From the NCBI GenBank assembly GCA_022826045.1, contig JAJDVQ010000023.1, forward strand, positions 1 to 64,000: a stretch of 64,000 nucleotides of DNA, read 5' to 3'. The stretch is from Acidimicrobiia bacterium (GTDB lineage: Bacteria; Actinomycetota; Acidimicrobiia; Acidimicrobiales; Poriferisodalaceae). Position numbers and translations under genes: made by a program. The notes under the pieces are model-generated. The model was not told where the DNA came from and did not search any database. It saw only the letters and a program-made list of their open reading frames with translations. Below are positions 15,507-30,677 of this stretch, in pieces (position 1 is the first letter of the stretch; every line of letters starts with the position of its first letter).

Positions 15507-15622
15507 GCTACGGGAACAGGGCAGGTTCGCGGGCTCCTCGGGACCGCCTGCCGCTGTGCGCACGGCATCAAGATGCTCGGCGTCGAGCGTCTTGGCTGCT
15601 ACGGGAACAGGGCGGGCTCGCG
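15507..15622. repeat. 25-bp direct repeat of the HNH gene's 3' end
   Basis: The 25 bases at 15598-15622, which encode the last codons and stop of the DUF222-HNH gene, recur at 15507-15531 with two mismatches. The copies are offset by 91 bp. This looks like the trace of a duplication or an exchange between copies of this multi-copy gene family. Confidence 0.7.
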
Positions 15623-17149
15623 AGATAAATCGAGTGTGCGGGTCGGGGCGGCGTCTTGCAGCGGCGCAGGGTTGCGGCGGGGGGTCGGCTTCTTGGATCT
15701 GGCGGGGTTGGGCGCTGACTCCGCGTCCGGCGGTATGAGCCGGTAGCGGTTGTTGTGCTTGATGACCTGCCAGTTGTGGTCGTGGATCTTGTCGTGGCAG
15801 GACCAGCACACCAGCACGAGGTTGTCGATCTTGGTTGGACCACCGCAGAGCCACGGGATGATGTGATGCGCTTCGCAGTCGCCGGGCGGGGCGCCGCAGC
15901 CGATGCAGGCGCCGTCACGGGCGATCAGGGCGCGGCGCTGGGCTGCGGTGGGCGCTCGTGCGGCGACGGCCTCGTAGAGGGGTGTGAGCTGTTTGCCGAA
16001 CAGCACGACGGAGATGTCGGCGTTGCAGCAGAGCCGGTCGATGACGCTGGCGGGCACCGGACCGGCGCCGGCGATCTCTCCGATGCCGCCGTGGTCGTCG
16101 AGCAGGTCTGCGAGGTCGGCTCGCACGATGACCTGAGTCGACTGGGCCTTGTGTTCGCCCGAGCCTGTGCCGCCGCAGGTGGCGTGGCAACAGCCCGTGA
16201 CCGCGCTGTTGACCTCGTTCGCTGTCGCTTCGTCGCAGTTCATGTTGCCGCTGGCCGCTGAATCGTCAGCAGTGATGCCGTTCAGACCGCTGCTGCTGGA
16301 GTGCGCGCAGCCCGTCGTGTTGACAGCAGCGGTGCCGCCTCGAGGGGGTTCGTGGGCAGCCGTGGGCGCGGAGCCAGAGTGGGTCACGATGCCGTCGAGG
16401 GCGTCTGCCATGCGCTGGTCGCGAGTGCGCACGGCACCCTCGCATGCCGTGTCGCCGCCGATGGTGTCGTCTCGCCGTGCGTCGTCGGGGTTCGAGACAG
16501 CGCCGTAACGCTGCAGGCGACGGTCGGCTTGGCGGAGGCGCTCGGCTTCGTCGCGGAGGCGAGCTTGGATGCGGGCGCCCATCTCTGCGTCGAACGCACC
16601 GCGCATCTGCACGGTGCCGTCCTCGCCGCTCCAGAAGCGCACGTTGCGGTTGCGGCGATTGCGACGGTGCCGCTCGGCGAGGTCAGCGGCGCTCTGGTGC
16701 TTCGCAGTCCAGCGCGCTGATGCATGGGCGAACTCGTCAGGCGGAAGCGTCTTGGCCAAGTCCACCAGCTCCGGATCACGCTGCACCGCCTCGGGGCTGG
16801 TCTGGCGCGCGGCGCGGGCCAGACGGGCGGCGTTGGCCATGCACATCTCGCCGTCAGCCAGCGCGATCCGGGCCTCGCGCACCTGTGCGAGCTCGGCGGC
16901 TGCACGCACGTTGCGTGCTGCATCGGAACGCGGGACTGCGGCGATCTGGTGCAGTACACCCGCGCCGCCGTCGCCGTGCCGCTCTCGCGACGCGATCTGC
17001 GACGCAACGGCTGTCTCCAGCATCTCGAGCCGGGCGCGCAGCGGCTTGGCCAGCCCCAGCGCCTCGTGCAGCTCGGCGGTGGGCGCACCCTCGACACCGT
17101 CGAGGGCCGCTGCGAGCGAGTCGAGCGCCGACTGCACCTGAGAGAACAT
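15599..17149 (-). CDS. DUF222 domain HNH endonuclease
   Basis: This 516-residue member of the actinobacterial DUF222-HNH ('13E12 repeat') family has an N-terminal helical DUF222 region (residues 1 to about 220), a Ser/Gly/Cys-rich linker (about 245-330) and a C-terminal HNH finger. The finger reads CIGCGAPPGDCEAHHIIPW, then CWSCHDKIHDHNW with the metal-binding cysteine pairs and the catalytic His. The family is repeated in many actinobacterial genomes and behaves like a mobile or recombinogenic gene; its biological role is not settled. The linker is longer and more Cys-rich than usual. Confidence 0.88.
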   Translation of the reverse strand: MFSQVQSALDSLAAALDGVEGAPTAELHEALGLAKPLRARLEMLETAVASQIASRERHGDGGAGVLHQIAAVPRSDAARNVRAAAELAQVREARIALADGEMCMANAARLARAARQTSPEAVQRDPELVDLAKTLPPDEFAHASARWTAKHQSAADLAERHRRNRRNRNVRFWSGEDGTVQMRGAFDAEMGARIQARLRDEAERLRQADRRLQRYGAVSNPDDARRDDTIGGDTACEGAVRTRDQRMADALDGIVTHSGSAPTAAHEPPRGGTAAVNTTGCAHSSSSGLNGITADDSAASGNMNCDEATANEVNSAVTGCCHATCGGTGSGEHKAQSTQVIVRADLADLLDDHGGIGEIAGAGPVPASVIDRLCCNADISVVLFGKQLTPLYEAVAARAPTAAQRRALIARDGACIGCGAPPGDCEAHHIIPWLCGGPTKIDNLVLVCWSCHDKIHDHNWQVIKHNNRYRLIPPDAESAPNPARSKKPTPRRNPAPLQDAAPTRTLDLSREPALFP

Positions 17150-18805: not shown

Positions 18806-20152
18806 ATGAGTTGCGACGGCGGACACATTCCGAACTGCGGGGGGGGGGGGGGTCTGCGCGGGCGTGTCTCGATCCTCGGCGGCGCGTTGGCGTTGCTTGC
18901 CGTCTTGGCTGGATGCGGCGACAGCGAGGAAACAGCCGACGCTGAGCTTCCCCCGGCTTCGTCGCCGGCCGACGACGCTTTTGCAACTACGACAACTCCG
19001 GTTGCTGACACCGCTGCAACGGCGTCACCCTTGTCGGTGTCGGCCAGCCGGGCCCACACCGAGACGCTTGCCTCTCGCGACGACGGCCAAGCTGACCTGC
19101 CCGGTTCTGCCGACGAGTCTGGGCCTTCGATTTCGCAGCAGGACGCTGACGCTTCCGACAGTGTCGGCGTGTCGGGCAGTTCAGACTCATCTGTGGTGCC
19201 AGGACCACCGGGTCCTCCGGGTCCCAGGGGCGAGGTCGGCCCGCCCGGTCCACCCGGTCCGAACGGACTGACCGGCCCGCCCGGTTCGCGCGGCGCCCGC
19301 GGGCAGACCGGCGAGGCGGGACCGGCGGGCCCGCAGGGAGAACAGGGCGTCATCGGCGCAGCAGGCCCGCCGGGACCTTCGGGATCTGATGACACTGGCC
19401 CGCCTGGCCCCCCCGGCCCCCCCGGCCCTCGCGGTTTTTCGGGATCAGGTCCTCCCGGTCCTCCTGGTCCTCCCGGTTCGGGCGGCGGCGGAGGCGACGG
19501 CACGCCGGGTCCTCCGGGTCCCCGGGGCGTAAAGGGCGACACCGGTCCGCAAGGTCCGCCTGGCCCCACCGGTCCTCCGGGTCCGCAGGGTTCGGGCGGT
19601 GCCGGCGCGCTTGGTCCTCCGGGTCCTCCGGGTCCGCAGGGCTCGGGCAACCCCGGTCCTCCCGGTCCTCCCGGTCCGACCGGCCCGCCGGGTACCGCTT
19701 CGACACAAGGTCCGCCTGGTCCGACGGGTCCTCCGGGTCCTCCGGGTGCCTCGACGGGCGGCCCGACCGGTCCTCCCGGTCCGACCGGTCCGCCTGGTCC
19801 GACCGGTCCTCCCGGTCTTCCCGGCCCAGGCGGCAGCATCGGCGGTTCCGGTCCTCCCGGTCCGCCCGGTCCCACCGGCCCGCCGGGCCTGACTGGTCCG
19901 CCCGGCCCCCCCGGCCCGCAGGGCACAAGTGGCGGTACTAGTTCGAGCGACAGTTGGTCGGCGCCGCAATGGGTGACTCAGCGCCCTTCGGACGACGCGC
20001 TGGAAATCCACTTCGGCGAAGGTCCGCCGCCCTCGACGGGCAGCTTCGCTGAAGGCATGGTGTACATCTCCCGCCAAGGCACCGTGTGCAAGCTCTATGA
20101 GCACAGCGACAGGGCTTGGGTGCCACGGGCATCGTTCGCATGCGCCGACTGA
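18806..20152 (+). CDS. collagen-like lipoprotein with G14 tract
   Basis: The 448-residue product starts at ATG 18806, runs through a poly-Gly stretch encoded by 14 consecutive G, then an export signal ending in the lipobox VLAGC (Cys near residue 37). A Ser/Thr/Asp-rich stalk (about 40-130) leads to about 80 Gly-X-Y triplets dominated by GPP (about 131-372), with short interruptions such as SGSDDTG and GSGGGGGDG. The C-terminal cap has [20 protein letters not shown] and a final Cys. It should be a surface-anchored, trimer-forming filament. The tail overlaps the next gene by 13 bp. A change in G number would separate the start codon from the lipoprotein frame. Confidence 0.8.
18839..18852 (+). 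repeat. homopolymeric G14 tract inside the lipoprotein leader
   Basis: Fourteen consecutive G lie 33 bp after the ATG and before the signal peptide. In the sequenced length the frame is open. Tracts of this length slip during replication, so this is a candidate contingency (phase-variation) switch. It is also a place where sequencing error is likely. Confidence 0.8.
19199..19923 (+). repeat. Gly-X-Y collagen-like repeat region 1
   Basis: About 240 codons of Gly-X-Y, rich in GPPGPP and GPTGPP. At base level these are imperfect 9- and 18-bp repeats. The reverse strand also reads without stops because the complement of GPP codons gives GGP-type codons; that is an artefact of composition. Confidence 0.85.
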
Positions 20153-21498
20153 GGCTCGCCCGCCTGCGCCGGCGGCCTGTGGGGATGATCGCGTCGGCAG
20201 CAGTGCTGGCGCTGCTTGCAAGCGGAGTGTGGTTCTACGGCGCTGTCGGCATCGCGACAGCGCAGACCGGCCCGGATGACGCTGCAGGCCCGCCCGGCCC
20301 GCCCGGCCCGCCGGGCGATCAGGGGCCAGAAGGCGATCGCGGCGACCCGGGCTATCCCGGGCCTGACGGCCCACGAGGACCACGCGGCCTTCCAGGTACT
20401 CCAGGAGCGTCCGGCCCTCCCGGTGACCCGGGCGAGCTCGGCCCTCCCGGTCCCCCCGGCCCGGATGGCGTCGGCCCGCCCGGCCCGCCCGGCCCCCCCG
20501 GTGCGCGAGGACCGGCCGGTTTCGGCGCGCCTGGTCCGCTTGGCCCGCCCGGTCCGGCCGGCACGGGCGGCGGTGCAGGCCCCCCCGGCCCGCGAGGTCC
20601 GCAGGGACAGGTGGGCGACGCCGGTCCAGCGGGTGCCCAGGCAGGTCCGCCTGGTCCCCCAGGCCCAGCCGGCAGCGGCGTGCCCGGCCCGCCCGGCCCG
20701 CCTGGTCCTCCCGGTCCGTCCGGCAGCGGCCCTCCTGGTCCACCAGGTCCACCCGGCTCGCAGGGTTCAGGCGGCGTCGGCGCGCCTGGTCCGCTTGGTC
20801 CAGAAGGTCCACCCGGTCCGACTGGCCCGCCGGCCGCTCAACAAGGCCCGCCTGGTCCGCCCGGTCCCAACGGCCCGCCCGGCCCTACGGGCCCGTCCGG
20901 CAGCGGCCCGCCTGGTCCGCCCGGTCCCGCGGGTCCTCCCGGCGTCACTGCGCCCCCTGGCCCGCCCGGTCCGCCCGGCCCGACCGGTCCGCCCGGTCCC
21001 AACGGCCCGCCAGGCCCTCTCGGCCCCAAGGGCCCGCCCGGCCCGACCAGCTCTCAACAAGGCCCGCCTGGTCCGCCCGGCCCGCCCGGCCCGCCCGGCC
21101 CGTTCGGCCCGCCCGGTCCGCCGGGTCCGCCCGCCATGTCCACATCGATCAGCTTCGGCTCGAGCGGCTCGGCTGTCGTTGCGCTGTCGATCCCAGCGCC
21201 ACGCGCGCGCAGCCTGTTCTCTGCATTCGCCACGCCGGCCTCGGATCGAGCAGAGCGGCCCAAGGACGTTCGCATCGGCGCTGCTGATCCGCCGACTGAC
21301 ACCGCTCGCATCGGCGCCGTCTACTTCTCGATCACTGGTGCAGGCAGTTCGGGCGACTGCAAGATCTATCTCTACACCGGCTCGCAATGGGCACTATGGG
21401 GCGTGCTCGACTGCGAAGTGCTCAACGCGCCGAGCGCGGTCACAGTGTCGCCTGCATCCGTCGGCGACTGGGGGTCGCCCGTGCTGGGCTTGCTGTAG
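20140..21498 (+). CDS. secreted collagen-like protein
   Basis: This 452-residue protein begins with a basic leader and a hydrophobic signal ([20 protein letters not shown]) ending near IATAQT, so it is either cleaved and secreted or held by one membrane span. About 94 Gly-X-Y triplets follow (residues about 49-332). The C-terminal cap contains [10 protein letters not shown], then [15 protein letters not shown] and another Cys, the same Tyr/Cys-Lys/Trp/Cys pattern as the cap of the preceding protein. The two may form mixed trimers; that is inference. ATG 20140 lies inside the preceding gene's end. Its TAG stop overlaps the next GTG start by one base. Confidence 0.8.
20285..21135 (+). repeat. 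Gly-X-Y collagen-like repeat region 2
   Basis: About 283 codons of Gly-X-Y with GPP, GPA and GPS triplets and few interruptions (for example QAGPPG and AQQGPPG). Longer than region 1 and with a higher share of GPP. Confidence 0.85.
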
Positions 21499-22955
21499 TG
21501 GGGGCGCCGGCAGCACGCTCGCCGGAGCCGCGCTTCGGCAACCGGACGCGAAGCCGCTGGAAGCGGTCGGCAGCGATGCTGCTGTTCGTGTCGGCGTGCA
21601 GCGTGCCCGGCAACGACTCGACGACCAGCGCTCCGCTGGCCGGCGCAGACGCAGCCCTCGAGGGCCAGGCTTCTGCTGAGAGCCTCACCGCGTTGCTGGC
21701 CGAGCCACTTCACACTCATCGGCACCCCGAGATCGACGCTGCACTGCAAGCACTCGCCGGCGCAGATGCCGTGGACTCCGCGGCGAGCGGCACGGTCGCG
21801 CGTGCTGACGCTCCGGCAGCGCCGCGGACAGTGCCCGACGCCGCTGCTCCGCCCGCCGACGAGCGTGCCTCTGCGGGAGGCGAAGATGCCGCCGACACCG
21901 GCACCGCGCCGCTGCTGCTGGCGGTCGACGTGCCGGCATTCGCGCCAGTGCCCGCAGGCGTCGACGGCGAGGTGCTGATGGACGACCGGGCAGAGCTCGA
22001 GCGCTTCGTCCTGTCCCACGGCCCGGCGGCGACGGTTGTGGCGCTCAAGGAGGTCGAACTGGCGACCGGGCGCGATTGCCACGACACGGCGCATGAGGTG
22101 GGGCACATCGCCTGGGAGCATTTCGGAGCGGCTGCCTTCGCGGCCGTCGGCCACGACTGTCATGCGGGAGCGCTCCACGGCACGATCGAATCGATGTTCG
22201 CGCAGCGCGGCACGGCGAGGCTCGCCCAGGACGTGTCGGCTGTGTGTGCTGGCCCCAACCCGTTTCTCGTGCATCAGTGCCTGCACGGCGTGGGCCACGG
22301 CCTGATGGCGTGGACGTCGTACGAGCTGCCCGAAGCGCTCGGGCTCTGCGACCTCCTTCCCACGGCGCAGAACCGCGACTCCTGCTATGGCGGGGTGTAC
22401 ATGGAGAACGGGATCGGCGGCGTGTCGGGCCGCATGGGCCATACGACCGAGTACATCAGCACGACAGACCCGCATTTCCCCTGCAACGTGCTCGCTGAGC
22501 AGTACTGGCCGGGCTGCTACTTCTGGCAGTCGAGCAATCTGTTCTATTTCGGCTGGAGCACCGATGCGGTCATGGAGGTCTGCGGCGAGGCCGCATGGAA
22601 CTCGACGCAGGCGTGCTTCATGTCCACCGGGCGCGACCTGGGTTCCATCCACCGCGCGGATCCGGCCGTGGCCGCCGCCGACTGCCGCCTCGCAGCGACC
22701 GAGGAACGGATCGCCTGGTGCTTCCAGGGCGCGGCGCTGAGCCGCTTCACCGAGCCGGCCAACGCACCGTTCTCAGCGCAGCTCTGCACGCTGGCCGACA
22801 GGGCCGACGGCGAGTTCGTCGCGGACAGCTGCTGGGAGATGCTGCTGCGAGACGCACCGCATATCTTCCCCGATGAAGCAGGACTGCGGGAGTTCTGCGA
22901 CACCATCGAGATCGCCGGGCGCCGTCAGGCCTGCCATGGGAGGGCGGATGCGTGA
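21498..22955 (+). CDS. lipoprotein with novel Cys/His-rich domain
   Basis: From GTG 21498 (overlapping the previous TAG) the product has 485 residues. A basic leader and AMLLFVSAC form a lipobox with Cys near residue 35. A disordered Ala/Pro/Asp linker leads to a domain of about 300 residues starting near 180. Its motifs are CHDTAHEVGH (Cys 194), GHDCHAGALHG, HQCLHGVGHGLMAW, CYGGVYMEN and several later paired Cys. The spacing of Cys and His suggests a metal-binding or disulfide-rich exported domain. I cannot name the family. The paralogous domain in the next gene conserves all these motifs except some His (VGR for VGH). Confidence 0.75.
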   Translation: MGAPAARSPEPRFGNRTRSRWKRSAAMLLFVSACSVPGNDSTTSAPLAGADAALEGQASAESLTALLAEPLHTHRHPEIDAALQALAGADAVDSAASGTVARADAPAAPRTVPDAAAPPADERASAGGEDAADTGTAPLLLAVDVPAFAPVPAGVDGEVLMDDRAELERFVLSHGPAATVVALKEVELATGRDCHDTAHEVGHIAWEHFGAAAFAAVGHDCHAGALHGTIESMFAQRGTARLAQDVSAVCAGPNPFLVHQCLHGVGHGLMAWTSYELPEALGLCDLLPTAQNRDSCYGGVYMENGIGGVSGRMGHTTEYISTTDPHFPCNVLAEQYWPGCYFWQSSNLFYFGWSTDAVMEVCGEAAWNSTQACFMSTGRDLGSIHRADPAVAAADCRLAATEERIAWCFQGAALSRFTEPANAPFSAQLCTLADRADGEFVADSCWEMLLRDAPHIFPDEAGLREFCDTIEIAGRRQACHGRADA

Positions 22956-24736
22956 GGCGCTCCGGCTTCGGACGCCTCGGTGTCCCGCGACGGTCTCGAA
23001 CCGAACCGCAGGATGACCAGCCCACCGCACGGCAGGGCAGGAATGCGGCGGCGGGCTGGCTCGCGTACGGGCTGTTCGCCGCAGCGGTTGTCGGCGGCGT
23101 GGCCGCGATCTTGTGGTGGCAGACCCGCGCCGGTGACGATGCGGCGGCGGACCTCGTGGCACCGCCGGAATCGCTCGACATCGCCTACAGCCACAGCCAT
23201 GCTCACCGCCATGCTGACGGGGTGACCCACAGCCATCCTCATGCGCACGTGTACGGCATTCCGTCGCCGGACACAGCGTCGGCGCCGGCTTCGGTGCCCG
23301 CAGCAGCGCCCGCGAGGACCAACGCCGATGCTGCCACCGGCGCCGGTACTGCGGAAGGCGTCGCCGCGCCGACAGCCGTCGGCGGGCCGTCGGGCCGAGT
23401 GCGGACGGTGGTCTACGGCGACGACGGCGCGTTCGCGCCCGAGCGTGTGGAGATCACGACCGGCGACACGGTGAGGTTCGTGAACGAGTCGGCAGTGCCG
23501 GTGTGGCCGGCGTCGAACATCCATCCCACGCACGAGATCCTGCCCGAGTTCGACCCGCTCGAGGCCATCCCGCCAGGGGAGAGCTGGTCGTTCACGTTCA
23601 CCGAGAACGGCTGGTGGCGCTACCACAACCACATCGACGCGTCCCAGACCGGCACCGTGGTCGCGACCGGCGCCGCAGACGCCGGCGGCGGCGTTGCGCC
23701 GCTGCTTGCCGACATGACGGTGCCGGAGTTCCCGCCGTTCCCGGCCGAAGTCGACGGCGAAGCGCTCTTCGACGACGCCGTGATGCTCGCGGAGTTCGTG
23801 GAGCGCTTCGGGCCGGCCGGCACCACGGCGGCGCTCAAGGAGGCGGAGCAGCGCACCGGCCGCTACTGCCACGACACGGCGCACGACGTCGGCCGGATCG
23901 CCTATGAGATCTTCGGGCCGATCGCCTTCTCCATCGCCGGTCACGAATGCCAGTCGGGGGCGCTTCACGGCGCGACCGAGGCCATGTTCGCCGACCGCGG
24001 CACTGCCCGTCTCGCCGAGGACACCAACGCGCTCTGCGGGCCCGCGGACAACAAGTTCGTGCGTCATCAGTGCTTCCACGGCGTAGGCCACGGCCTGATG
24101 GCGTGGACGTCCTATGAGATCCACGAGGCGCTGGGGCTCTGCGACCAGGTGCGCGAAGACGACGCGCCGTCGTGCTATTCGGGCGTGTTCATGGAGAACG
24201 TGGTGGGAGGGCTCTCGGGCCTGATGGGGCACATCACCGAGTACCTGCGCAGCGACGACCCGCACTACCCCTGCGACGTGGTCGGCGAGCGATATCGGGC
24301 CGACTGCTACTACTACCAGACCACCCACATGTGGCGGGTCTTCGACGGCGACATGGCCGCAATCGCCGCCACATGCGCCACGCTCGACGGCAGGTCCAAG
24401 GAGCTGTGCTTCTCGTCGTACGGCCGCGATGTCGGGAACCTGACCCGCGGCGATCCCGCGGCGGCCGTCGAGCTCTGCGGCCACGCGCCCGCCGGGGCAG
24501 ATCGCGTGGAATGCCTCGCCGGGGCGGCGCAGGACCGCTTCTGGGAGGCCTCCGGTTCCGACGAGGCGATCGTGATGTGCTCGCTGCTGAGCGATGCCGA
24601 CGAGGCCGACGCGTGCTGGTGGACGATCATCGACCGTGCCGGCGACGTGTACACCGAGCCGTCAGGCCGCCGAGGCTTCTGCGACCGCCTGCCCGAGGAG
24701 TGGCGTGCCCGATGCGAGTCGCAGATCGCCGCCTGA
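22952..24736 (+). CDS. membrane-anchored His-rich, cupredoxin-like and Cys/His-domain protein
   Basis: This 594-residue protein overlaps the previous gene by 4 bp (GTGA). Order of parts: cytoplasmic tail; membrane span at about 35-55 (LAYGLFAAAVVGGVAAILWW); a His-rich stretch near 79-102 (SHSHAHRHADGVTHSHPHAH); an Ala-rich linker; a cupredoxin-like domain at about 149-241 (GDDGAFAPERVEITTGDTV, then HPTH and WRYHNHIDASQTG with candidate copper ligands); and the Cys/His-rich domain of the upstream protein (CHDTAHDVGR at Cys 306, HQCFHGVGHGLMAW, CYSGVFMEN). It looks like an extracytoplasmic metal-binding, probably copper-binding, protein. The metal and any enzymatic activity are inferred. Confidence 0.78.
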   Translation: MRRSGFGRLGVPRRSRTEPQDDQPTARQGRNAAAGWLAYGLFAAAVVGGVAAILWWQTRAGDDAAADLVAPPESLDIAYSHSHAHRHADGVTHSHPHAHVYGIPSPDTASAPASVPAAAPARTNADAATGAGTAEGVAAPTAVGGPSGRVRTVVYGDDGAFAPERVEITTGDTVRFVNESAVPVWPASNIHPTHEILPEFDPLEAIPPGESWSFTFTENGWWRYHNHIDASQTGTVVATGAADAGGGVAPLLADMTVPEFPPFPAEVDGEALFDDAVMLAEFVERFGPAGTTAALKEAEQRTGRYCHDTAHDVGRIAYEIFGPIAFSIAGHECQSGALHGATEAMFADRGTARLAEDTNALCGPADNKFVRHQCFHGVGHGLMAWTSYEIHEALGLCDQVREDDAPSCYSGVFMENVVGGLSGLMGHITEYLRSDDPHYPCDVVGERYRADCYYYQTTHMWRVFDGDMAAIAATCATLDGRSKELCFSSYGRDVGNLTRGDPAAAVELCGHAPAGADRVECLAGAAQDRFWEASGSDEAIVMCSLLSDADEADACWWTIIDRAGDVYTEPSGRRGFCDRLPEEWRARCESQIAA

Positions 24737-25795: not shown

Positions 25796-26671
25796 ATGTA
25801 TCCATCCCGCTTCCGGTACGAAGCGCCCTCGACCGTCGCCGAGGCAGTAGCGATGCTCGCCGCAGCAGACGGCGAGGCCAAGATCCTGGCGGGCGGCCAG
25901 AGCCTCATCCCGATGATGAAACTGCGATTCGCAGCGCCCGCGATGATCGTGGACATCAACGGCATCGGCGGTCTCGACTACCACCGGTCCGATCCCGACG
26001 GCACCTATCGCATCGGGGCGCTGTGCCGGCACGCCGATCTCGAGAAGTCCGCTGCGCTCGCCGATGCCCAGCCCACCATCGCTGCGGCGGCCCCCCTCGT
26101 GGCCGACCCGCTCGTGCGCACGCGGGGAACGCTGGTCGGCTCGGTGTGCCACGCAGATCCGCAGGGCGACTGGGCCTCGGTGATGGTGTCGCTGGAAGGC
26201 GCCATCGTGGCCCAGGGCCCCAATGGGCACCGGAGCATTCAGGTGGCTGATCTCATCGACGGCCCGTTCCAGACGGTGCTCGCTCCCGACGAGATCGCCG
26301 TCGAAGCAGTGATTCCCGCAGCACGCGGCGCCCGCGTCGGCGGTTATCTCAAGCTCGAACGTCGGGTCGGCGATTTCGCCACCGTCGGCGTCGCGGTCTC
26401 GGTCGAGATGTCGGGCGGCAGCGTTGCTCGGGCGGGCATCGGGCTGACCGGAGTCGGGCCTGCCACCATCAACGCTTCGGATGCCGCGGCGGCGCTGGTC
26501 GGCACGGTGCTCGGTGCAGACGCCGTCGACGCGGCAGCCCAGCTCGCGGCCGAGGCGGCTCAGCCACGCTCTGACCACCGGGGAAGCGCCGATTACAAGC
26601 GCCACGTCGTCGCCACCTTCGTGCGGCGCATCGGCGCTCAGATCCAGCGATCAGAACACGAGGCGGCCTGA
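25796..26671 (+). CDS. coxM: CO dehydrogenase medium (FAD) subunit
   Basis: The 291-residue FAD-binding subunit has [13 protein letters not shown] (32-44), the flavin-binding loop of the xanthine-oxidase-family medium subunits, and the second loop [19 protein letters not shown]. It passes electrons from the 2Fe-2S clusters of CoxS through FAD to the acceptor. Order M-S-L and 1-bp gaps to coxS are the classic form I arrangement. Confidence 0.93.
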
Positions 26672-26672
26672 C

Positions 26673-27254
26673 ATGAGCACATTGTTCGAAGAGGTCCGTC
26701 CGAGCGACGGCGGCGCCGGCGACGCAGTGCCGGTTCGCCGTGTGGAGCTGACCGTGAACGGCGAGCGCCGTGCGGCCGACGTGGAGCCGCGGCTGTTGCT
26801 GGCGCACCTGCTGCGCAACGGCTTCCGGCTGACGGGAACTCACACCGGTTGCGACACCACCAACTGCGGCGCATGCACGGTGCTGTACGACGGCGTGCCC
26901 GTCAAGAGCTGCACGATGTTCGCCGTCCAGGCCGACGGCCACGAGGTGCTCACCGTCGAAGGCCTGGCGACGGCGAGCGAGCTGCACCCGATCCAGGAGG
27001 GCTTCAAGGACGAGCACGGCCTGCAGTGCGGTTTCTGCACCCCGGGCATGATGCTCGCCGCGAAGGCGTTGCTGGACGAGAACCCGAACCCCAGCGAGGA
27101 CGAGATCCGCTGGGCGCTGTCGGGGAATCTCTGCCGCTGCACCGGCTACCAGAACATCGTCAAGGCCGTGATGTGGGCCGCCGAGAAGCTAGGCGCCAAC
27201 GCCGAGAGCGACGGTGCGGACGATGCCGGCGATGACGCAGGCGGGGAGGGCTGA
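26673..27254 (+). CDS. coxS: CO dehydrogenase small (2Fe-2S) subunit
   Basis: The 193-residue iron-sulfur subunit has the plant-type cluster motif C60-x4-C65-x2-C68-x11-C80 and the second cluster C119-x2-C122 ... C154-x-C156 ([21 protein letters not shown]). Compared with typical CoxS there is an N-terminal extension of about 20 residues and an acidic C-terminal tail. ATG 26673 follows the coxM stop by one base. Confidence 0.93.
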
Positions 27255-27255
27255 G

Positions 27256-29637
27256 ATGGCGCTCGACGAGATCAAGATCGGCGGCCTCGGCGCCAGCCGG
27301 CGGCGGGTGGAGGACAACCGCTTCATTCGCGGCAAGGGCAACTACATCGACGACATCGCCCTGCCCGGGATGCTGCACATGGAGATCCTGCGCAGCCCGC
27401 TGGCTCACGCCCGCATCCGTTCCATTGACGTCAGCGCTGCCTGGGCCGTCCCCGGCGTTCGCATGGTGCTCACCGGCGACATGCTGGCCGCCCGGAATCT
27501 GGCGTGGATGCCGACGCTGTCGTACGACACCCAGGCTGTACTCGCCACCGACAAGGTCCGGTTCCAGGGCCAGGAAGTGGCCTGCGTCGTCGCCGACGAC
27601 CCCTACATCGCAAAGGACGGCTGCGAGGCGATCGTGGTCGACTACGAACCGCTGCCGCCCATCGTCAACCCGACCCAGGCAAAGGCACCCGGCGCGCCGC
27701 TGATCCGCGACGACAAGACCGGCCAGGACTCCAACGTCGTGTTCGACTGGGAGGTCGGCGACCGTGAGGGCACCGATCGGGCCTTCGCGCAGGCCGATGT
27801 GGTCTCGACCATCGACATGCACTACCCGCGCTCGCACCCGTCGCCCATCGAGGCGTGCGGCTCGATCGCCGATTTCGACCGGGCGACCTCGAAGCTCACC
27901 GTGTACATGACCACCCAGGCGCCGCACATCATCCGCGCCGCGGTGGCCCTGGTAGCCGAGCTGCCCGAGCACATGATCCGCATCGTGTCCCCCGACCTCG
28001 GCGGCGGCTTCGGGAACAAGGTGCCGGTGTACCCGGGCTACGTCGTGTCGATCCTGGCGTCGATCCTGCTCGAGTGCCCCGTCAAGTGGATCGAGGACAA
28101 GAGCGGCAACCTCATCTCGACGGGGTTCGGCCGCGACATCTACCTCAAGGGCGAGATGGCGCTGCGCAACGACGGCCGCATTCTCGGCGTGCGGATGCAC
28201 ACCGACTCCGACCACGGCGCCTTCTTCTCCGATGCCCAGCCGAGCAAGTTCAAGATCGGCCTGATGCACTCGGCCTTCAGCTGTTACGACATTCCCGTCG
28301 CGCATCTCACCGCCCAGGGCGTCTACACCAACAAGGCACCCGGCGGCGTCGCGTATCGCTGCTCATTCCGGGTCACCGAGGCCATGTACTTCCAGGAGCG
28401 CATGGTGCAGGCGGCCGCCGCCGACCTGGGCATGGACCAGGCCGAGTTCCGCCGCATCAACCTGGTGCGCGACGACGACTTCCCCCATCGCACACCATGG
28501 GGGTTCCTCACCGACTCGGGCCAGTACGGCAAATGCCTCGACCTCGGGCTCGAAGCGATCGGCTACGAGGACTTCCTGCGCCAGAAGGAGGAGGCGCGCC
28601 AGCGGGGACGGCTGCTGGGCATCGGCATCTCGACCATGACCGAGCCGCTGGGGGCGGGCAACAGCCGGGAGTACGACATCTTGGGCATCAAGATGTTCGA
28701 CTCCGCCGAGCTGAAGGTCCACATGACCGGCAAGGCGCTGCTGCGCACCGGCGCCAAGACACAGGGCCAGGGCCACGAGACCACCTGGGCGCAGATCGTC
28801 GCCCACGAGCTGGGCATACCGGCCGAGGATGTTTTGGTCGAAGAGGGCGACACCGACACGGCCCCGTTCGGCATGGGCACCTACGCGTCACGCAGCACCC
28901 CGGTGGCCGGGGCGGCGGTGGCCATGGTGTCGCGCAAGATCCGCGCCAAGGCTCGCAAGATCGCCGCGCACCTGCTCGAGGTCTCCGAGGAGGACATCGA
29001 ATGGGAGCTGGGCCGGTTCTCGGTGCGGGGCGCTCCCGACCGGGGCGTGACCATCCAGGAATGCGCGATTGCTGCCTACAGCAACATGCCCGACGGAATG
29101 GAGCCGGGCCTGGAGAACAACGCCTACTACGACCCGCCGAACCTGACGTGGCCGTTCGCTTGCTACATCGCGACCGTCGAGGTCGATCCCGAGACCGGGG
29201 TGTGGGACGTGCTGCGGGTGGTGGCGGTGGACGACTGCGGCGTGCGCATCAACCCGATGATCGTCGAGGGCCAGATCATGGGAGGGCTCACCGAGGCCTA
29301 CGCCATGGCCAACATGCAGTTCATCACCTTCGACGAGGACGGCAACTGCATCGGCTCCAACTACATGGACTACCTGCTGCCGACCGCGTGGGAGACACCG
29401 GGCTTTGAGCTCCACGAGGTGGTGACGCCGTGCCCGCACCACCCCATCGGTGCGAAGGGCATCGGCGAGTGCGCCACCGTCGGCGGCCCGGCGGCGTTCG
29501 TCAACGCGGTGATCGATGCCATCGGCGACAGCGGTGTGCGCAATATCGACATGCCGCTGCTGCCCGATCGGGTGCATGAGGCCATCACGCAGGGCCACGA
29601 TGTCTCCGGCGCTCCGCCGGTGAAGACGGAGCCATGA
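27256..29637 (+). CDS. coxL: CO dehydrogenase large (Mo-Cu) subunit, form I
   Basis: The 793-residue catalytic subunit carries the form I active-site loop AYRCSFR at residues 366-372, with Cys 369 as the copper ligand. This distinguishes true aerobic CO dehydrogenase from form II homologues (AYRGAGR). The molybdenum-site Glu is E738 in IGECATVGGP. The enzyme oxidises CO with water to CO2 and feeds electrons to quinone, allowing scavenging of trace CO. ATG 27256 follows coxS by one base; the stop overlaps the next gene by 4 bp. Confidence 0.96.
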   Translation: MALDEIKIGGLGASRRRVEDNRFIRGKGNYIDDIALPGMLHMEILRSPLAHARIRSIDVSAAWAVPGVRMVLTGDMLAARNLAWMPTLSYDTQAVLATDKVRFQGQEVACVVADDPYIAKDGCEAIVVDYEPLPPIVNPTQAKAPGAPLIRDDKTGQDSNVVFDWEVGDREGTDRAFAQADVVSTIDMHYPRSHPSPIEACGSIADFDRATSKLTVYMTTQAPHIIRAAVALVAELPEHMIRIVSPDLGGGFGNKVPVYPGYVVSILASILLECPVKWIEDKSGNLISTGFGRDIYLKGEMALRNDGRILGVRMHTDSDHGAFFSDAQPSKFKIGLMHSAFSCYDIPVAHLTAQGVYTNKAPGGVAYRCSFRVTEAMYFQERMVQAAAADLGMDQAEFRRINLVRDDDFPHRTPWGFLTDSGQYGKCLDLGLEAIGYEDFLRQKEEARQRGRLLGIGISTMTEPLGAGNSREYDILGIKMFDSAELKVHMTGKALLRTGAKTQGQGHETTWAQIVAHELGIPAEDVLVEEGDTDTAPFGMGTYASRSTPVAGAAVAMVSRKIRAKARKIAAHLLEVSEEDIEWELGRFSVRGAPDRGVTIQECAIAAYSNMPDGMEPGLENNAYYDPPNLTWPFACYIATVEVDPETGVWDVLRVVAVDDCGVRINPMIVEGQIMGGLTEAYAMANMQFITFDEDGNCIGSNYMDYLLPTAWETPGFELHEVVTPCPHHPIGAKGIGECATVGGPAAFVNAVIDAIGDSGVRNIDMPLLPDRVHEAITQGHDVSGAPPVKTEP

Positions 29638-30677
29638 GCCGCACCCGCGCGGTCGAGGGCTGGGGCGTGCTCGAGCACGCCACCGAGCTCGCACGCAGCG
29701 GCGAGCCATTCGTGCTGGCTACGGTGGTCTGGCGCGAAGGACCGAGTTCGGGTCAGCAGGGCTCGCGTGCCATCTACACGGCGTCCGGCGAGATGTACGG
29801 GTGGATCGGCGGTGCTTGCGCTGAGCCCACGTTCATCCGCGAGGCCATCGCCACACTCGAAACTGGCGCACCGCGCCTGCTGGCGCTGGGAGCGAGCGAC
29901 CGGTTCGGCGACCTGCCGCCAGAGGCCGAGCCGGCAGGCGAGGCCGTGGCCCGAGCGGCCCGTGAGCGCAGCGAACAAGAGCGGGAGACAACTGGCGAGC
30001 ACGCTGGAAGGAGCGCATCTCTTCCATTGCTCCCCGGCACCACTGCCGTCGCCATGTCATGCCAGAGCGAAGGCGCCTTGCAGATCTACTTGGAGCCCGT
30101 CGTGGCCGTGCCTCACTTGGTGATCGTCGGAAGCTCGCCGATGGCAGCAACGCTGGCGTCGCTGGCCCACGAACTCGACTGGCGTGTCGAGCAGGTCAGC
30201 GGCCCGGATTTCAGCGAGGGACTGCTCACGCCCCAGTCGATGGTGGTCGTGGCCACCCAGGGCCACGGCGACGAGGATGTGCTGGCAGCTGCGCTGAAGG
30301 CGGCGCCGGCATATGTGGGCCTCGTCGCGTCCAGCCGGAGGGGCGACTCCGTGCGTTCTGTGCTGGCGGCCCAAGGCGTGCACGAGGACCGACTGGCCTC
30401 GTTGCGGGTGCCCGCGGGACTGGATCTCGGCAGCACCACCCACAAAGAGGTCGCCGTATCGATCCTGGCCGAGCTGGTGCAACTGCGGGCGCAGGGTGCA
30501 TTCGCTGCCCCGGTCACCGTGCCGCCGCCCGAGGTCTCGCTGGCCGTCGACCCTGTCTGCGGCATGACCGTCCAGATCGATCCGGCGACGCCGTCGCTGG
30601 AGATCGGCGACGAGGTCTACTACTTCTGCTGCGCGGGGTGCCGCACAACCTTCGCACGTGAGCGGGGAGTCGCTTGA
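29634..30677 (+). CDS. XdhC/CoxI-family maturation protein with C-terminal YHS domain
   Basis: This 347-residue protein has the XdhC/CoxI N-terminal domain (VVWREGPSSGQQGSRA; GWIGGACAEP) and the XdhC Rossmann domain (LVIVGSSPMAATLASLA; YVGLVASSRRGDSV), which take part in building or loading the molybdenum cofactor of CoxL. At about residues 302-345 it ends in a YHS-type metal domain (DPVCGMTVQID; YYFCCAGCRTTF) with several Cys. The fusion would place a metal-binding module, perhaps for the active-site copper, on the maturation factor; that is inference. It overlaps coxL and coxG. Confidence 0.85.
   Translation: MSRTRAVEGWGVLEHATELARSGEPFVLATVVWREGPSSGQQGSRAIYTASGEMYGWIGGACAEPTFIREAIATLETGAPRLLALGASDRFGDLPPEAEPAGEAVARAARERSEQERETTGEHAGRSASLPLLPGTTAVAMSCQSEGALQIYLEPVVAVPHLVIVGSSPMAATLASLAHELDWRVEQVSGPDFSEGLLTPQSMVVVATQGHGDEDVLAAALKAAPAYVGLVASSRRGDSVRSVLAAQGVHEDRLASLRVPAGLDLGSTTHKEVAVSILAELVQLRAQGAFAAPVTVPPPEVSLAVDPVCGMTVQIDPATPSLEIGDEVYYFCCAGCRTTFARERGVA

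Follow-up and report, generated by a model that had tools for sequence, protein, structure and literature searches.

YcnJ of Bacillus subtilis is reported to combine CopC, CopD and YtkA domains, of which YtkA supports CuA assembly (PMC13344008). When copper is limiting, YcnJ serves to supply it (PMC12362106, PMC13344008), and its CopC domain binds Cu(II) and exchanges Cu(II) with YcnI (PMC12362106). A further report describes sponge-associated actinobacteria of the UBA5794 group in which both SCO1 and PCu(A)C are missing, and considers hypothetical proteins that may move copper in them (PMC12008989). Here we describe an operon of four genes, G1 to G4, at positions 18806-24736 of a 64,000-nucleotide stretch of DNA from an Acidimicrobiia bacterium (contig JAJDVQ010000023.1, assembly GCA_022826045.1), which is called the window. 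The operon encodes two collagen-like proteins and two proteins that have a Cys/His-rich domain in common, which we name CHGH for its CHxxxH and CxHGxGHG motifs. We read the operon as a module for extracytoplasmic copper capture and relay on a collagen scaffold and give this reading a probability of about 0.46, slightly below even; copper is suggested by the domain partners of CHGH and the role of the collagens by their linkage.

All four genes lie on the forward strand and fill this interval as overlapping open reading frames (ORFs). G1 (18806..20152) encodes a collagen-like lipoprotein of 448 aa, G2 (20140..21498) a collagen-like secreted protein of 452 aa when read from ATG 20140, G3 (21498..22955) a lipoprotein with one CHGH domain, and G4 (22952..24736) a membrane-anchored protein with a His-rich stretch, a cupredoxin-like domain and CHGH. 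The lipobox-like motifs, with the Cys at 18914-18916 in G1 and at 21597-21599 in G3, as well as the single N-terminal membrane helix of G4 (23054..23119), were identified by eye from the translations. The G1/G2, G2/G3 and G3/G4 overlaps of 13, 1 and 4 bp go with starts at ATG 20140, GTG 21498 and GTG 22952, where the starts of G2 and G3 are deduced and further upstream starts are open to both as well. A sequence-only reading of the window had described these four genes with exactly these overlaps, two of the products as collagen-like and the other two with a common Cys/His domain, and all of this holds. The three overlaps recur identically in a relative, L032 (JAJDTF010000136; loci carry L numbers and genomes G numbers, G000 being the window's genome). 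Against L032, the ratio of nonsynonymous to synonymous substitution rates (dN/dS) is 0.32 for G1, 0.24 for G2, 0.25 for G3 and 0.20 for G4. Purifying selection acts on all four genes, and because of these pairwise values of 0.20-0.32 we regard them as real. A search for terminator-like sites between 18500 and 25000 found 0 where 1.4 were expected, which is weak evidence.

Judged by sequence, CHGH is one undescribed domain of G3 (21972..22952) and G4 (23762..24733), the two copies being 47-49% identical. In an alignment of 13 sequences 14 Cys and five His are invariant, and the copies of G3 and G4 have them all. A larger alignment of 95 rows, from which 18 of the original 113 had been removed beforehand as short or duplicate, keeps the five His in 94/94, 94/94, 95/95, 95/95 and 95/95 rows. 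Six of the Cys are kept in 95/95 rows, the first pair in 83/94 and 84/95, and the remaining six in 94/95, 94/95, 89/90, 90/90, 89/89 and 88/88. The Cys come in pairs with a spacing of 11-12, which recur every 34-44 residues. Searches of Pfam, NCBIfam and PHROGs gave nothing significant for CHGH, its profile gave 0 matches to PDB sequences up to E 10, and a Pfam scan of 13 members revealed no Sel1 or TPR repeat up to E 1. The AlphaFold model of the G4 domain is an all-alpha superhelix with a mean predicted local distance difference test score (pLDDT) of 87.6 and a predicted template modelling score (pTM) of 0.85, so an alpha-solenoid fold is predicted; a Foldseek search of the PDB with this model returned generic solenoids only, none at E <= 0.001. 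Like TPR or Sel1-like alpha-solenoid proteins, the model is an alpha-alpha superhelix with recurring units, but in CHGH, unlike in them, each unit has one conserved pair of Cys, and His are conserved as well. We infer that the five His cluster and that the Cys form disulfides.

The domain is widespread. It was found in 15/296 genomes of a phylum survey and in 3/247 of a class survey (own genome included), and a scan of genome contigs yielded 304 CHGH-related stretches in Acidimicrobiia, Chloroflexota, Patescibacteria, Acidobacteriota and others. The best 79 of these 304 relatives together with the window are the 80 loci referred to below, a selected and not an unbiased sample. One Patescibacteria-group contig (L102, 7359-16800) has seven CHGH ORFs within 9.5 kb, the first and the last of them with a cupredoxin.

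The link of CHGH to copper is drawn because the domain is fused to CopC-CopD and to cupredoxin in other genomes, and these fusions are the main evidence for the metal, independent of the window. CHGH and a cupredoxin are found in a single ORF in 46/80 loci, while a cupredoxin is present in 49/80, and L072, L073 and L096 encode the two domains in neighbouring genes. The cupredoxin precedes CHGH in 48 of the 50 cupredoxin-CHGH ORFs; L061 and L068 have the reverse order. CHGH is the C-terminal part in the actinobacterial CopC-like ORFs that were scanned (n=7), all seven of which score at least the Pfam CopC cut-off and three at least that of CopD, and the CopC-CopD-CHGH protein of L046 reaches both. 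CHGH of these other actinobacteria thereby occupies the place that YtkA has in YcnJ, C-terminal to CopC-CopD (PMC13344008), and the likeness to a YcnJ-type importer lies in the extracytoplasmic copper theme. In G1-G4 themselves no Pfam match to CopC or CopD was found, so the YcnJ-type arrangement belongs to relatives and not to the window operon. CopC matches occur in 8 of the 15 CHGH genomes searched. The proposal of the sequence-only reading that the operon serves a process at the cell surface, with copper as its theme, is backed by these fusions and by the collagen linkage in a second clade that is discussed below.

Copper could also be handled here for protection. In such a copper defence, excess copper would be sequestered outside the membrane and the collagens would form a metal-binding matrix; the His-rich stretch and the several conserved His could buffer metal, and there is a weak NCBIfam match to the copper-resistance protein CopI (E 0.086, far under cut-off). 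The 25 commonest families among 130 near neighbours of CHGH, however, include no efflux or resistance family; no Pfam family occurs in more than 3 of these 130 rows, which are 124 of the 135 nearest neighbours plus 6 others (one a repeat), 11 nearest neighbours having been left out as CHGH/cupredoxin paralogues, antisense frames or, once, a near-duplicate. The reported role of YcnJ in supply also speaks against defence (PMC12362106, PMC13344008). We consider copper supply or relay likelier than detoxification, since the CopC-CopD partners are parts of import systems, and the defensive role is in our view unlikely.

The cupredoxin-like domain of G4 (23390..23686) had been recognized by the sequence-only reading together with the preceding His-rich stretch (23189..23251), and both are present. 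The domain matches TIGR02656 at E 0.002, under the cut-off, and PDB sequences of laccase (the best match) and plastocyanin at E about 1e-4 to 3e-4. G4 itself has no Pfam cupredoxin match and L033 is likewise unmatched by Cupredoxin_1; the cut-off of this family is exceeded in the relatives L061, L096, L027 and L016. A profile of the cupredoxin alignment found nitrite reductase (E 3e-8, the best) and amicyanin (E 6e-7) among PDB sequences, and by this similarity to solved cupredoxins we assign the cupredoxin fold. Weak cupredoxin-like stretches of L059, L063, L064 and L067 (E 4e-4 to 4e-3) remained under the threshold. Among 54 cupredoxin rows, 7 of 61 having been removed beforehand as short or duplicate, H216, H250 and H252 are kept in 52/54 and H219 and D226 in 52/53 (frame numbering), and no Cys or Met is conserved at 85% or more. 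The seed motif of the profile, WPAS..HPTH/HPMH, which 48/54 rows fit, contains H216 and H219, so that their conservation is partly by construction, while D226, H250 and H252 lie outside it. In the alignment to nitrite reductase 9cck, the position of the type-1 Cys is taken by Asp/Asn between the His of an HxH motif; this motif and HPTH are conserved.

The G4 domain is thus a cupredoxin by descent, and a non-blue one. By profile it is in the same fold family as the type-1 cupredoxins plastocyanin, amicyanin and nitrite reductase, but these have a Cys ligand, whereas the G4-type family has four His and one Asp, with Asp/Asn at the Cys position. Because the type-1 Cys is replaced, we do not regard it as a blue-copper protein, and a blue-copper or electron-carrying head was rejected. 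The collagen filaments with a copper-oxidising head that had been envisaged initially are not supported in this form, as the conserved Cys ligand is missing from the cupredoxin and neither collagen is fused to the head. His-rich sequence is also found in L032, L033 and L034, which are in the same clade as the window.

Two readings of the cupredoxin other than copper capture have to be weighed here. Many cupredoxins are electron carriers, and L012 has a fusion of CHGH with a c-type cytochrome (Pfam Cytochrome_CBB3, E 9e-9), as would suit a transfer of electrons at the surface by CHGH and cupredoxin together. This is very improbable given the Asp/Asn at the type-1 Cys position and the lack of a conserved Met, and the cytochrome fusion is the single one among the loci read. 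The match to laccase and the encoding of a copper-type domain together with collagens would agree with an enzyme, G4 then acting on the collagens as lysyl oxidase does in animals, by oxidation and cross-linking. Such an activity is scarcely credible, since G1 contains only 2 and G2 only 3 Lys, and since CHGH proteins are mostly found without collagen.

G1 and G2 are clear by the scores of the Pfam Collagen family (PF01391, cut-off 27.2), with 85 bits (E 3e-24) for G1 and 98.2 bits (E 2e-28) for G2. The longest Gly-X-Y run in them is 21 triplets, and it never exceeded 8 when each protein was shuffled 1000 times. The Gly-X-Y region of G1 (19202..19939) has 77 triplets in runs of at least 4 with short interruptions, and that of G2 (20287..21132) has 86 triplets in such runs. 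On these repeats we place both among the collagen-like proteins. The adhesin models of NCBIfam fit poorly: G1 scores 78.5 bits against 325 for SclB, 50.8 against 400 for SclA and 46.5 against 500 for Lcl, and G2 is likewise far below. With SclA, SclB and Lcl the two proteins share that they are exported Gly-X-Y proteins; the differences are the two-Cys cap, the pairing of a lipid-anchored protein with a secreted one, and an operon that includes copper-type proteins.

This C-terminal cap, with two conserved Cys in G1 (19961..20149), has a homologue in G2 (21220..21444), and the same cap is present on one collagen each in L046 and L086. Searched alone against 19 sequences, the G1 cap matched those of L046 and L086 at E 1e-6 to 7e-6; the cap profile was built partly from the L046 and L086 caps, so that their match to the profile is by construction. 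The second collagens of L046 and L086 have another cap, common to these two and not detected in G1 or G2. Across the class the G1/G2-type cap profile matches 2/247 genomes, the window's own and G521; the G521 match was rejected as a capped collagen, the matching protein being non-collagen. These genome searches scored part of the first-look candidates (24/45 for the cap search in G000). Collagen matches as such occur in 102/247 class genomes, 71 of them over the cut-off, and the mere presence of collagen in a genome was dismissed as meaningful by itself for this reason.

Near CHGH, collagen sequence of at least 6 triplets was found in 6/80 loci, all from Acidimicrobiia. The window, L032, L046 and L086 each have two overlapping collagen ORFs, in L047 the collagen end is cut by the contig edge, and L034 has an 80-residue collagen remnant directly upstream. 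The collagens of L046, L047 and L086 point towards the cupredoxin-CHGH gene, and in the window they run in the same direction as it; L046 additionally has a CopC-CopD-CHGH gene and a cyclophilin gene upstream. In a tree with long branches and uncertain deep forks, of which only the well-supported tip groups were used, the collagen-linked loci form two groups of Acidimicrobiia with collagen-free relatives between them; in L033, within the window's group, no collagen was found in the available sequence. When 15 CHGH genomes were searched, 10/15 had a collagen match and 8/15 one over the cut-off. Among the matches listed, all of those in G000, G565 (L032), G573 (L046) and G578 (L086) are at the CHGH locus, and G567 also has collagen there; the matches in G566, G572, G574 and G577 are below the cut-off, stop-broken or on other contigs. 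The linkage of collagen and CHGH looks real and confined to a few Acidimicrobiia.

The cyclophilin gene of L046 (4475-6103) is an observation of its own. It encodes a prolyl isomerase of the cyclophilin type, matched in two stretches (Pfam E 5.5e-56), and lies between the CopC-CopD-CHGH and the cupredoxin-CHGH gene, near the two collagens; in L047 this place is taken by a shorter gene. Prolyl isomerases assist collagen folding.

In the copper relay that we infer, copper would be the metal, and it would move between domains in the direction of supply. Membrane-anchored G4 would take copper via its His-rich stretch and the four-His cupredoxin and would then hand it on to the five-His site in its own CHGH domain, and G3, a lipoprotein with CHGH alone, could accept or carry copper as well. 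Collagen triple helices would be formed by lipid-anchored G1 and by secreted G2, whose Cys-bearing caps may contact CHGH and gather or space G3 and G4 at the cell surface.

The collagens could also be an ordinary adhesin or host-contact pair that stands beside copper-type genes by chance, as collagen is common in the class and the second collagens of L046 and L086 have unrelated caps. The linkage that the sequence-only reading led one to expect was found in the six loci and not in the other 74/80, where no collagen was found in the available sequence around CHGH; several of these contigs end near CHGH, so that absence there is not proof, and the home-made ORF caller misses collagen ORFs. A chance placement is nevertheless improbable to much the same degree as copper defence, because the gene overlaps are identical in L032, the linkage is also present, in a different orientation, in a second clade, and the common cap is otherwise nearly absent from the class. 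Several points weigh against the scaffolded relay: CHGH mostly works without collagen, and a further gene separates CHGH from collagen in L086 and L047. In L046 and in L086 the G1/G2-type cap is found on just one collagen of the two, and the collagen matches of G568 and G447 are unlinked to CHGH. The two clades are few, and they may go back to two origins or to a single one followed by losses or transfer. CopC was not matched in G000, so that no such importer is known as the copper recipient in the window's own genome; a SCO1-like protein in G000 and G007 means that the module is no simple replacement of SCO1 there.

SCO1 was matched in 3/15 CHGH genomes (G000, G007 and G568) and PCu(A)C in 1/15 (G568), and 12 of the 13 CHGH genomes besides G000 and G007 match neither. 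Nine genomes of the same genus without detected CHGH, a comparison set that was not matched and leaves completeness and kinship out of account, have SCO1 in 8/9 and PCu(A)C in 0/9. The rarity of both in CHGH genomes fits what the UBA5794 report states (PMC12008989), but G000 itself does have a SCO1-like protein. CHGH may likewise act in extracytoplasmic copper delivery; no sequence relation between it and SCO1 or PCu(A)C was found.

The surroundings of the operon show some further features. The window and L032 have both flanks in common, an isocitrate/isopropylmalate dehydrogenase-like gene and a DUF2269 gene on the opposite strand. Beyond the latter, about 1 kb past G4, begin genes of an aerobic CO dehydrogenase (25796-30677), a molybdenum-copper enzyme; its large subunit scores 1103 bits against the TIGR02416 cut-off of 991 and has the AYRCSFR motif, which we take to indicate form I. 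Among the 80 CHGH loci this motif was seen in the window and L032 only. An XdhC-like ORF (29634-30677) contains a 34-bp dispersed repeat (29953-29986) that looks REP-like (repetitive extragenic palindromic). With at most 2 mismatches it has 38 copies in G000, 58 in G565, 265 in G566, some of them near contig starts, 118 in G567, 201 in G572 and 120 in G576; G573 has 0, and a control with the reversed sequence also gave 0. The genomes that share the repeat have CHGH domains 53-94% identical to that of G4. A similarity of L034 to the XdhC-like gene is this dispersed repeat and was rejected as shared synteny. On the other side of the operon, the C-terminal part of an ORF on the reverse strand (15599-17149) matches IscB weakly (37.8 bits, cut-off 175); it is probably an ordinary HNH protein.

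A broader proposition, which is doubtful as a whole, would make CHGH an extracellular domain that receives or chaperones copper, is widespread from candidate-phyla bacteria to actinobacteria and in many cases is joined to a non-blue four-His cupredoxin; some Acidimicrobiia would mount it on dedicated capped collagens, as an antenna for copper at the surface. Where a genome has neither SCO1 nor PCu(A)C, CHGH may then be the copper-trafficking protein suspected for UBA5794 (PMC12008989). Among the listed results of searches of the open literature, preprints excluded, there was no description of the CHGH domain or of a collagen-copper operon. If the proposition is true, a large family without significant Pfam, NCBIfam or PDB match would be a new extracytoplasmic copper domain, and the non-blue cupredoxin with its HPTH and HxH motifs would add a second putative metal site. 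The CHGH proteins would be concrete candidates for the hypothetical copper-moving proteins of UBA5794 (PMC12008989). Bacterial collagen, finally, would carry a metal-handling apparatus and so have a role beyond adhesion.

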